NCBI GenBank assembly: GCA_030688685.1 | Contig: JAUYJF010000048.1 | Span: 1 to 32,133, forward strand | Direction of reading: 5' to 3' | Length of the DNA stretch: 32,133 nt | Source of the DNA: Candidatus Yanofskyibacteriota bacterium | GTDB lineage: Bacteria; Patescibacteriota; Minisyncoccia; Minisyncoccales; UBA10102 | Shown: positions 20,065-32,133 of the stretch, in pieces | Position numbering within the stretch: the stretch's first letter is position 1 | Layout of the letters: every line of letters begins with the position of its first letter | The notes under the pieces: generated by a model | What the model saw: only the letters and a program-made list of their open reading frames with translations | What the model was told of the DNA's origin: nothing | The model's database searches: none | Translations under genes and position numbers: made by a program

Positions 20065-20150
20065 GCCCAGGTGGTGGAATTGGCTATACACGTGCGCCTC
20101 AAAAGCGCATGCCGTAAGGCTTGAGGGTTCGAGTCCCTCCCTGGGCACCA
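20065..20150 (+). tRNA. tRNA-Leu (anticodon CAA)
   Basis: The 86-base class II tRNA has a 7-bp acceptor stem (GCCCAGG/CCTGGGC), an anticodon stem TGCGC/GCGCA with loop CTCAAAA (anticodon CAA, reads TTG), a long variable arm (GCC/GGC with a GTAA loop), and a T stem GAGGG/CCCTC with TTCGAGT. The 3' CCA is encoded. Confidence 0.97.
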
Positions 20151-21139: not shown

Positions 21140-21973
21140 TTACTGGGGTGTAATCCGGTGAGCTTCAAGGCGCTGAGTCCAATACCGTCCACAGTTTCCT
21201 GCCGCCTCCACCACAATAGAATGATCCCCTTCCTCTGCGCCATACACATGGGCAAAGGAACCCCCAAAGCTCCAGACCGCACCAAGCTCTGACGAGCGTG
21301 TCGGGAAATAAACTCTGGTGCTCACTTTCTGCTCCCCGTCAAAAAGAATCCTCACGGTTACATACGGTCCCCCTAAAGGTCCCTCTTGAGAACCACAGCC
21401 GCTTACAATGAACCCGTTCCATGAGATGGCAAAGTCCGCGGTTTCCCCCGCAGGCACATTCACTGTCTGGCCTATGATCTGCGTATATGATTGGGTTCCC
21501 CAAATGGCTCCTTGAGGCACATTTACCGAGGTCGCGATATTGGCTTCTCCCTCTGATTCAGAATCCATATTGTCCGTGGATTGCGCGCGCGAAAGAAGGT
21601 TTTCAGCCCCCAGGTTTTTCCAGCCAGCTCCATTACACCCATAAAACGCGTTATCTTCAGCATTAAAATACATTGTTCCCTCAAGCGCTGTCTCGCACGC
21701 GCCAGGATGACCGAGAAGAGGCTCAAAAAACAGCGCGGTGTCAATTCCCAGGCTTCCCACGGTCAAAGCTCCCTCTTTTACCTGGTCTTCCTCCCCGGTG
21801 TTGAGAGGAGAAACAATATTTTCTTCTGGGGGATTTGCTGAAGGCGATTGAAAATTCGCGAACACGGTTACAGCAAATAGAGAGAGGAATCCTCCCGCGA
21901 CACCAAGAATAAAGAGGGCTTTATTTTTCTGTTTGAGGATCGTATTGTTTCCCATAGAATATTCGTTATTCAT
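21140..21973 (-). CDS. Unknown exported/anchored protein with beta-rich C-terminus
   Basis: The likely ATG is at 21973 (MNNEYSMGNN; an inner ATG at 21955 is possible), giving 277 residues. A TM helix or signal (KALFILGVAGGFLSLFAVTVFA) lies at about 18-40. A segment with ACETALEGTMYFNAED and FYGCNGAGWKNL follows; the same Cys-bounded motif occurs in the 105-residue protein two genes upstream. The C-terminal 110 residues (for example IGQTVNVPAGETADFAISWNG) look like a beta-sandwich. It is probably a surface protein. Its start overlaps the upstream stop. No named family is recognised. Confidence 0.7.
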   Translation of the reverse strand: MNNEYSMGNNTILKQKNKALFILGVAGGFLSLFAVTVFANFQSPSANPPEENIVSPLNTGEEDQVKEGALTVGSLGIDTALFFEPLLGHPGACETALEGTMYFNAEDNAFYGCNGAGWKNLGAENLLSRAQSTDNMDSESEGEANIATSVNVPQGAIWGTQSYTQIIGQTVNVPAGETADFAISWNGFIVSGCGSQEGPLGGPYVTVRILFDGEQKVSTRVYFPTRSSELGAVWSFGGSFAHVYGAEEGDHSIVVEAAGNCGRYWTQRLEAHRITPQ

Positions 21974-22196
21974 CCGATGCCTGAAGCTGCCGCAACAGGT
22001 TCCTCTTTTCTTCTTGGCTCCGCTCAACCGCAGGCACCGCTTCCTCCCGAAATTGCTGAATCGTTTCCCCGCGGATTTCAGCTTTATCTTCTTGCTGATC
22101 CGTTTGTTCTGTGGGAGACCTGAGAACAGAGAACAGCACAAGAAACCCGGCGAGACCCAACAAGAGGATGCCGATGAATATTTTCTTTGCGGTCAT
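21966..22196 (-). CDS. Unknown small membrane-anchored protein
   Basis: The ATG at 22196 (MTAKKIF) is preferred to the track start at 22235, because it sits just after the upstream stop. The 76-residue product has one TM helix (about 5-22) and a charged, Glu/Gln-rich tail likely to be helical (EEAVPAVERSQEEKRNLLRQL). It lies between two exported proteins that share a Cys motif and is probably cotranscribed with them. Its function is unknown. Confidence 0.6.
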   Translation of the reverse strand: MTAKKIFIGILLLGLAGFLVLFSVLRSPTEQTDQQEDKAEIRGETIQQFREEAVPAVERSQEEKRNLLRQLQASDE

Positions 22197-22198
22197 TG

Positions 22199-22516
22199 CT
22201 ATGGGGCTAAGCTTCTCCACGCTGTTCCATTGCACACATAAAAACGCTTCTCGTCTTTATCAAAATACATAATTCCAGCGCTGCATGCGGGCCGCGCGAG
22301 AGGTTCCATTCTGACTGTGCTTTCAGCTAAGAGAGCGTTCACCCATATGCCCCCTGCTTTTTCCTGGGAGGCTGCGTCTTCACGCAAGGGAACAATGATA
22401 CTGCCTTCTCCTGGGGGCGCCACGGCGGGAGGGGCAAACGCGGACGCAAACTGAGCAATCAACGGAAGCGCAAAGATAAGTGCCGCGGCCACGAAAGCAA
22501 AAACGCGAAAGCTCAT
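22199..22516 (-). CDS. Unknown small secreted protein with MYF...FYxCNGxxW motif
   Basis: The ATG at 22516 (MSFRVFAFVAAALIFALPL) gives 105 residues with a signal peptide ending near the AFA at about 28. The mature part includes a short proline/glycine linker and ends with ACSAGIMYFDKDEKRFYVCNGTAW. That block is shared with the larger protein two genes downstream and contains two cysteines placed to form a disulfide. The track start at 22552 overlaps the promoter. It is the first gene of a three-gene string with a leaderless promoter. Confidence 0.68.
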   Translation of the reverse strand: MSFRVFAFVAAALIFALPLIAQFASAFAPPAVAPPGEGSIIVPLREDAASQEKAGGIWVNALLAESTVRMEPLARPACSAGIMYFDKDEKRFYVCNGTAWRSLAP

Positions 22517-22522
22517 TACTAC

Positions 22523-22552
22523 AGTATAGAGAAAAGGGGAAATACCCGTCAA
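22523..22552 (-). promoter_or_regulatory. Promoter of the exported-protein operon (leaderless)
   Basis: TTGACG (22552-22547), an 18-base spacer and TATACT (22528-22523), with six bases to the ATG at 22516. The transcription start would coincide with the start codon. Confidence 0.72.
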
Positions 22553-30670: not shown

Positions 30671-31675
30671 TTAATAGCTCTGTGCAGTAAAATACACCCT
30701 TTCTACTTCCTTTTGAAGCTTTTGGGTATTGCCGTGAGAGAGTAACCCCCTATACGATTGATACGTTTCCTGACTCGGATTTACACTGACTCTTTTGAAC
30801 ATGCGCCTCTTTGTAGTGGTACGAAGAACCCTATGGTCTGGAAAATGCACCCATCCAAGAAAGTCAACGCCGGAAGCTAGTGTCTGCAGTGAGATTTTCT
30901 TCGGATGAAGATTTATTCTTAGCTCTTCAACGAGGAATCCCTGAACTTTTTGGAGATATGTTTCCAGAAGCATCCTATTTGCCGAAAGAAACACAAAGTC
31001 ATCGGCATAGCGTATGTAATACTTTGCTTTGAGTTTGTGTTTCACAAATTGGTCAAACTCGTTCATATAGATATTCACCAGGAGTTGCGAAGTAAGATTG
31101 CCTAAAGGCAGCCCAACACCCTGCTTTGTAGAAGAAAAACTGGAAACAACCTCCCATAAGAGCCAAAAAACATTTTTATCCGGAATATACTTCTGAAGAA
31201 TATCCAGCAAAACTTTGTGATCAATATTCGCAAAGAACTTCCGGATGTCGCATTTCAAAACCCAGCAGGTCTTTGTGTTGTTTTTGCTCACGATATACCC
31301 AAAATCGCGTAAGCGATTGAGGGCTCTGTGCGTTCCTTTTTTCTTACGGCACGAAAAAGAATCAGCGATAAACGTTTTGTCAAAGAATGGATAGAGTGTT
31401 TTGTATAGAGCGTGATGCAAAAGTCGATCTCGCACTGTTGCCTTGTGGATATTCCTTGGTTTTGGGTCTGAAATGTTGAATTCCTTATATCCGCCATGCC
31501 GGTAGCTTTGGTTGGCAAGCTCGGAATGAAGAGCTAGAATGTTATCCATAAGGCGTAAAGAAAACTCCTGCACATCCTTCTTGCTTCTTTTGCCCCGCAC
31601 AAACTCTCTCCACGCCTCCAAAAGGTTTTCAATAGCAATAATATCTTCAAAACTATGAGTCAATTTGATTTTCAT
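30671..31675 (-). CDS. Diversity-generating retroelement reverse transcriptase
   Basis: The 334-residue RT shows ATVRDRLLHHALYKTLYPFF, catalytic aspartate in LKCDIRKFFANIDH, and the fourth motif LPLGNLTSQ, where SQ replaces the SP of other RTs, a known DGR hallmark. The active site is YIRYADDFVF, followed by FLGW. DGR RTs copy a template repeat with adenine errors, and the cDNA replaces a variable repeat in a target gene. AGAGG lies six bases before the ATG at 31675. The gene is AT-richer than its neighbours. An Avd-like gene starts 47 bases away on the opposite strand. No target gene is visible in the window. Confidence 0.9.
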   Translation of the reverse strand: MKIKLTHSFEDIIAIENLLEAWREFVRGKRSKKDVQEFSLRLMDNILALHSELANQSYRHGGYKEFNISDPKPRNIHKATVRDRLLHHALYKTLYPFFDKTFIADSFSCRKKKGTHRALNRLRDFGYIVSKNNTKTCWVLKCDIRKFFANIDHKVLLDILQKYIPDKNVFWLLWEVVSSFSSTKQGVGLPLGNLTSQLLVNIYMNEFDQFVKHKLKAKYYIRYADDFVFLSANRMLLETYLQKVQGFLVEELRINLHPKKISLQTLASGVDFLGWVHFPDHRVLRTTTKRRMFKRVSVNPSQETYQSYRGLLSHGNTQKLQKEVERVYFTAQSY

Positions 31676-31695
31676 AAAAAACCTCTACAAGTAAG

Positions 31696-31705
31696 CCCCC
31701 CCCCC
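31696..31705. repeat. Ten-base poly-C tract between RT and avd
   Basis: A run of ten C residues on the plus strand lies in the 47-base gap between the divergent RT and avd starts, followed by a small CGGC/GCCG hairpin. Such tracts can slip. It could also be an assembly weak point. Confidence 0.6.
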
Positions 31706-31722
31706 AACGGCTTCTGCCGCTC

Positions 31723-32073
31723 TTGGAGAAACTAAAGGGGGCGTATCTCTTGTGGTATGGCTACTACCAAACTTTGCCCAAACTCCATCGCCATTCTCTT
31801 GGACAAAGGATTGACACGCTGTTTGTTGAAATCATTGAAGCTGTCGCTTCGGCAAGCTTTCTTGTCCGTGAAGAAAAACATCCGTATATTCGCCTTGCCA
31901 TCAGAAAACTTGATACCTTAAAGGTACTCCTCATGGTGCTCTGGGAAACTAAATCCCTTGATAACAAAAAGTATATTGCTTTGTCTATAAAGATAGACGA
32001 AATCGGCAGAATGCTTGGCGGCTGGAGCGGCCAGCTACAAAAACAAAACTCTCCCGCCAAGGGAGAGGAATGA
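31723..32073 (+). CDS. avd: Avd-family DGR accessory protein (four-helix bundle)
   Basis: The 116-residue helical protein has the family features LWYGYYQTLPKLHRHSLGQRIDTLF and the helix YIRLAIRKLDTLKVLLMVLWE. Avd forms a basic pentameric barrel that binds the RT and template RNA in studied DGRs. The start is a TTG at 31723 with no evident Shine-Dalgarno site; an upstream in-frame CTG exists. It is divergent from the RT gene, and its last codons (about QNSPAKGEE) overlap the hairpin at the end of the AAC-rich repeat on the opposite strand. Confidence 0.87.
   Translation: MEKLKGAYLLWYGYYQTLPKLHRHSLGQRIDTLFVEIIEAVASASFLVREEKHPYIRLAIRKLDTLKVLLMVLWETKSLDNKKYIALSIKIDEIGRMLGGWSGQLQKQNSPAKGEE
32049..32067. 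other. Hairpin at the edge of the DGR repeat
   Basis: CTCTCCC (32049-32055) and GGGAGAG (32061-32067) form a perfect 7-bp stem with a five-base loop. Small hairpins near the repeat 3' end are known in DGRs. It also lies within the last codons of avd. Confidence 0.65.
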
Positions 32074-32133
32074 AGAGAGTTGCAGGAACCGCAGCGGGGT
32101 TGTTGGAGTTGAAGTCGTTGTCAAGCCAGTTGT
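32049..32133 (-). repeat. Probable DGR template repeat, cut by the window end
   Basis: The minus strand reads AACTGGCTTGACAACGACTT and on; in frame this is NWLDNDFNSNNPAAVP. The frequent AAC codons are the usual state of an unmutated DGR repeat, because adenines are the mutagenised bases and AAC can become many codons. It lies upstream of the RT on the same strand. The minus frame stays open to a TAG at 31987-31985, so a variable repeat at the end of a target gene remains possible. The left limit is arbitrary and the right limit is the window edge. Confidence 0.62.

Follow-up and report, generated by a model that had tools for sequence, protein, structure and literature searches.

We examined a window of 32,133 nucleotides from a Candidatus Yanofskyibacteriota genome assembly. 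At 21140-22552 it carries three genes (A, B, and C, first to third), all on the minus strand, and because A and B are separated by a 2-bp gap and B and C overlap by 8 bp on that shared strand, the three form one operon. Genes resembling glyA and folD lie upstream. The outer coordinate comes from a TTG start at 22552, which is probably 12 codons too early for A; an ATG is present at 22516. A contains ACSAGIMYFDKDEKRFYVCNGTAW, with cysteines 78 and 95 and Trp 100, and ends 5 residues after this motif. C starts with ATG at 21973 and carries ACETALEGTMYFNAEDNAFYGCNGAGW internally, with approximately 155 residues beyond the motif. The features of the operon are as follows.

22202..22516, minus strand: protein A, 105 aa; signal-peptide-like N-terminus, conserved head, C-terminal Cys module
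22283..22438, minus strand: head region of A, spanning residues about 27 (predicted mature start) to 78 (first cysteine)
22217..22285, minus strand: Cys module of A, Cys78 to Trp100; predicted strands at residues 83-86, 91-95, and 100-102
21969..22196, minus strand: protein B, 76 aa; one N-terminal transmembrane (TM) helix, charged tail, degenerate repeats
21143..21973, minus strand: protein C, 277 aa; signal-peptide-like N-terminus, head, Cys module, C-terminal beta-rich domain
21620..21697, minus strand: Cys module of C, Cys93 to Trp118; cysteines 93 and 113
21143..21556, minus strand: predicted C-terminal beta-rich domain of C, residues 140-277; second cysteine pair at 193 and 261

Relationship between A and C

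We aligned A with C and compared each score to the maximum obtained from 5000 shuffles. Residues 14-103 of A align with residues 32-121 of C, a stretch that begins where the hydrophobic N-terminal segment ends and closes with the module. The whole-protein alignment scored 131 (shuffle maximum 54), the module alone scored 76 (maximum 40), and the part N-terminal of the module scored 63 (maximum 52). The Cys-bounded motif that an earlier note on this DNA had reported for the first and third proteins is present in both beyond chance. That note read the motif as a single module placed at the end of A and in the middle of C; the positions are correct, but the module is not an isolated insert, since the head is shared too, and the similarity, rather than being confined to the motif, covers a longer region of which the motif is the last third. 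By these alignments, we regard A and C as paralogous over the head and the module, C being built like A but extended by a further beta-rich domain at the C-terminus.

The C-terminal domain of C (approximately 135 aa) had no detectable relative in our searches, and its predicted beta-rich structure is of low confidence (pLDDT about 40). The AlphaFold model of C is poor except for the helix and the module. A Foldseek search of this model against the PDB gave no significant match, and PDB sequence searches with C and with a module profile returned short chance matches only. Candidate relatives of the domain were rejected: an alignment to the protein ends at loci L073 and L071 was suggestive, but reciprocal domain searches found no homology, and a match at locus L223 (E=1e-4) was short, lay within a long repeat protein, and was taken as chance.

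The Cys module

The module of A is predicted to form a sheet of three short strands (pLDDT 87-94). Its pattern spans approximately 35 residues, P....G..Y(F/Y)(N/D)....FY.(Y/C)(N/D)G..W..L. A loose regular expression for this pattern returned mostly noise and was replaced by a profile. Across the phylum, 69 of 380 genomes contain the module. Among its carriers are very long repeat proteins (4354 and 4483 aa) from other Patescibacteria, with up to six copies within the single 4354-aa reading frame.

The same pattern is present in phage proteins, including the P-SSP7 tail fibre (gp17), a Synechococcus phage tail protein, a PM2-like Vibrio virus, and a Rhodococcus phage protein, as well as in PHROGs 8309, 38707, and 21412. 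Homologous modules matched phrog_1325 (E=3.2e-9), phrog_38707 (1.8e-5), and phrog_8309 (5.8e-5), whereas A and C themselves gave weak PHROG values of 0.007-0.04. A Foldseek comparison of A to viral proteins matched approximately 30 residues with a probability of 0.95-1.0; the E-values, limited by the shortness of the unit, were no better than 0.03-0.2. The module is a version, with paired cysteines, of this common phage tail-fibre-type hairpin. The phage hairpins that we saw have no cysteine or one (Rhodococcus phage Trina), whereas the module of A and C has two.

Most versions of the module likewise lack cysteine. Both cysteines were present in 15 modules, the first alone in none, the second alone in one, and neither in 29, with a further 9 modules left unscored by our automatic cysteine rule. 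This co-occurrence is significant by Fisher's test (p=4.6e-11, a value that ignores shared ancestry). Because the cysteines occur together, a disulfide clasp is supported, short of proof.

The proposal in the earlier note of a small disulfide-closed module is in line with this covariation and with the confident three-stranded sheet, the bond itself being putative. Of the two structure predictions suggested there, that of the module was confident and that of the C-terminal domain of C was poor. The statement that no known family is recognised stands for Pfam and NCBIfam, as A, B, and C had no match above cut-off in Pfam, NCBIfam, or PHROG; it does not extend to the module, which resembles families of phage structural proteins. 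The search for further occurrences succeeded for the module, as above, and for the head, described below.

The head family and its export signal

The head, with the consensus (A)W.EP...PPGGNV.APLNVG...Q.K.GGL, starts directly after the hydrophobic segment. Using a profile built from three sequences, we detected it in 83 of 247 genomes of the order, at 1 to 8 copies per genome (eight matches in G114). Head genes are often in tandem, with five in G196 and four each in G134 and G242. Five are encoded in the window's genome (694 kb, 48 contigs): besides the two in the operon, contig 17 carries a pair and contig 28 a single gene. Scanning one genome per species across 84,980 bacterial and archaeal species with the head profile yielded 77 loci. 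All informatively named records are patescibacterial, among them Nealson-, Moran-, Giovannoni-, Taylor-, Yonath-, Nomura-, Taga-, and Wildermuthbacteria and others, and the remaining records are 'bacterium' assemblies. The same scan queried with C alone gave no match. Judged from this distribution, the head defines a large family restricted to Patescibacteria, of which we found no description in the open-access literature searched.

Ala precedes the predicted mature start (position -1) in 92 of 119 head proteins (77%), V, A, or I is usual at -3, and the N-region is net positive. Type IV prepilins are marked by a type III signal peptide, in which G-F-T-L-x-E precedes the hydrophobic helix. None of the 119 head proteins has this prepilin motif, and none has a lipobox. 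The pattern suggests cleavage by signal peptidase I.

Variable C-terminal ends

We examined the C-terminal ends of 59 head proteins. Peptidase_S74, a trimerising chaperone domain, is present in five, which share it with tail-spike chaperone proteins, and is absent from A and C. Single proteins carry YadA_head, Gly_rich_2, DUF4082, DUF1554/endostatin-like, or DUF2341 domains, and one tail-fibre PHROG matches 15 of the 59. A 401-aa head protein matches the PilV/shufflon constant region over 82 residues (E=3.9e-22). Shufflon_N (PF04917) matched one of the 59 members, at profile positions 203-285 only (the shaft part), and matched neither A nor C.

At the DNA level, one pair of tandem paralogues is 98.7% identical over 308 bp and then unrelated, and a second pair is 97.7% identical over 257 bp and then unrelated. 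These pairs with identical fronts belong to relatives and do not describe A versus C. From such comparisons, the head family appears to consist of a constant front and exchangeable ends. Head genes with constant 5' and unrelated 3' parts were seen at loci L048 and L056.

Neighbours of head genes

Head genes are frequently accompanied by a B-like gene, encoding a protein of 60-130 aa with one N-terminal membrane helix and a charged tail that often holds two or three repeats (EEIL..LTAP-type) ending in LTAP or similar. Such a gene adjoins the head on the same strand at 36 of 102 non-redundant loci, compared to 5 of 205 control genes, and is nearly always upstream of it. In the window's genome, a B-like neighbour is present at each of the three head loci. 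B looks like a member of this conserved family of small membrane partners, a placement based on position and layout rather than on a significant sequence match. At 32 of 102 loci, compared to none of 19 random loci, the head also has a secreted FAWSxNIGW-repeat protein nearby. Secreted proteins with FAWSxNIGWISF repeats (L167:7962-9206 and homologues) recur near minor pilins and heads and belong to no clear family.

Linkage to pilus genes was clearest in G021, G023, G009, and G001, which represent four genera of the same family. Here a small TM protein and a head adjoin PilD on one strand, with minor pilins after the head in G021, G023, and G009, and with the major pilin and PilC on the opposite side in G023, G009, and G001. 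The 122-aa head protein of the G021 cluster matches A in layout. G080, from another family, has a rearranged version of the PilD-linked cluster. In the window's genome, contig 7 has the same pilus cluster with a FAWSxNIGW protein directly after PilD and no head between, and the pilus cluster on contig 18 is bordered by RNase Y and ClpP, at the site of head arrays in other families. None of the five head genes of this genome lies inside either type IV pilus cluster.

Across the data set, pilus genes or the ClpP-RNase Y slot lie within 7 kb of 35 of 102 head loci, compared to 0 of 19 random loci (p=0.0016, with this small random control). Approximately 65% of head loci have neither nearby, which is partly due to short contigs. 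We rate the pilus link as moderate over the whole set and strong in a small number of lineages. The idea in the earlier note of a surface-display or pilus-associated unit gains support from this linkage in relatives; in the window's own genome a pilus role would be extrapolated from them. As a separate observation, the two type IV pilus clusters of the window's genome, on contig 7 (L167) and contig 18 (L168), are distinct from one another; clade G1 Saccharibacteria likewise have two (PMC12206443).

Interpretation and alternatives

We favour the reading that A and C are exported fibre-type adhesins, linked to the pilus or surface, with exchangeable tips and made with the membrane partner B, and we give it roughly even chances. 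Each head protein would be exported by Sec, and its signal peptide cut at (V/A)-x-A before W/F..P. The PPxxN..PLNxG..Q.K.G.L segment would then dock the protein onto a shared surface platform, most likely the type IV pilus tip (minor pilins plus the FAWSxNIGW protein) or, alternatively, the membrane beside the pilus via B. A phage-tail-type stalk, possibly trimeric, would hold the exchangeable C-terminal domain that contacts a partner cell, with the Cys module as a disulfide-locked hairpin of the stalk. A would represent the minimal form (head and clasp), and C would bear a binding-type beta domain. Several observations count against parts of this scheme. The head genes of the window's genome lie outside its pilus clusters, and approximately 65% of head loci lack both pilus genes and the ClpP-RNase Y slot nearby. 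The trimer-implying domain occurs in only five of the 59 members and in neither A nor C, the C-terminal domain of C has no relative and a poor model, and the lone hydrophobic segment may be a membrane anchor that stays uncleaved.

The best reading of the comparison with known systems is that head proteins may work like PilV or PilY1, yet lie outside both families. PilV/shufflon adhesins of IncI-type thin pili (plasmid TP114, PMC9045228) resemble the heads in having a constant N-terminal part and exchangeable tips, and both groups are associated with type IV pili, the heads in relatives of the window's genome. The head family differs from PilV in having no prepilin N-terminus (0 of 119) and in comprising several separate genes, whereas PilV is one gene with invertible cassettes. 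Such cassettes, together with a site-specific recombinase, are the mark of the PilV shufflon. PilX1 and PilX2 of Nanosynbacter, which are PilY1-like, share with the heads their occurrence in Patescibacteria, a position in pilus loci (for the heads, in relatives of the window's genome), and the lack of a PilD signal peptide (PMC12206443). Their C-terminal beta domains are a jelly roll and a propeller, compared to a low-confidence beta-rich prediction for C, and they are described (PMC12206443) as minor pilins of lollipop architecture, a class other than that of the heads. Location in a pilus cluster, a trait of PilY1 and PilX2, applies to the heads of the four relatives and G080, and the window's copies are outside. 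PilX2 sets a precedent in Saccharibacteria: it is encoded in a pilus locus, has no predicted PilD signal, and is needed for cells to bind their host normally (PMC12206443).

A more specific version of the adhesin reading, which we hold tentatively and consider rather unlikely as a whole, is a display system specific to Patescibacteria in which the head docks interchangeable phage-fibre-like tips onto the pilus via the LTAP-repeat partner, so that an episymbiont could re-tool its recognition of hosts through swaps of the 3' gene end behind a 5' cassette that stays constant. Such a system would be a non-pilin counterpart of the PilV shufflon, and this part of the idea is equally tentative.

The head proteins could instead be surface fibre adhesins that act independently of pili, with either B or their own N-terminal helix as membrane anchor, and the pilus neighbourhood would then reflect no more than a common clustering of surface genes. 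We consider this possible, if somewhat doubtful. The copies in the window's genome lie away from pilus clusters, as do many head loci elsewhere, the N-terminus may be an uncleaved anchor, and the 4354- and 4483-aa repeat proteins that contain the Cys module are candidate large surface adhesins of the type noted in PMC4508563. However, four genera of one family retain the slot beside PilD, heads are enriched near pilus genes, and the frequent Ala at -1 fits cleavage.

Improbable, in our judgement, is an accessory role in the structure or assembly of the pilus or envelope, as a primer, stalk, or cap, in which the C-termini would drift without selection for binding. The minimal forms of approximately 105-145 aa (A and those of G021 and G023) have no obvious binding domain, and those of G021 and G023 sit in the pilus cluster, but arrays with identical 5' and unrelated 3' ends, and the lectin- or fibre-type domains, fit diversification of a tip. 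Remnants of prophage tail fibres, from phage infecting this bacterium, are suggested by the tail-fibre PHROGs and the Foldseek matches to Caudovirales proteins, but signal-peptide-like N-termini, housekeeping genes on both sides, conserved chromosomal synteny, and the absence of the head from 2.9 million viral contigs searched largely refute this explanation, which we regard as very unlikely. Equally slim are the chances that the cysteine pair binds metal in a zinc-ribbon-like manner, with no disulfide; weak PADR1 zinc-ribbon matches (E=0.19 and 0.03) fell under the curated cut-off, and we rejected this reading given that the exported proteins have only two cysteines and no conserved His and that Cys-free modules retain the same pattern.

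Pili are implicated in the recognition of host cells by the largely uncultured Patescibacteria, a question that is still open, and no tip adhesin for this class is described in the open-access literature searched. If the heads are adhesins, searches with their sequence could bring up hundreds of attachment candidates together with the exchangeable ends, and a recognisable head makes the question of host recognition testable in cultivable relatives.

Other features of the window

A diversity-generating retroelement (DGR) occupies the contig end at 30674-32133, with the following parts.

within 30674-32133: DGR reverse transcriptase (RVT_1, E=1e-25)
31723-32070, plus strand: DGR bAvd accessory protein (PF22296)
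32075-32128, minus strand: DGR template repeat

We considered a link between the DGR and the head genes and rejected it, as the variable repeat that we found sits in a headless protein. This repeat is on contig 10 at 496-549, and most of its differences from the template fall at template adenines. The window also encodes a tRNA-Leu (anticodon caa) at 20065-20150, between topoisomerase-like and NAD-epimerase-like genes.
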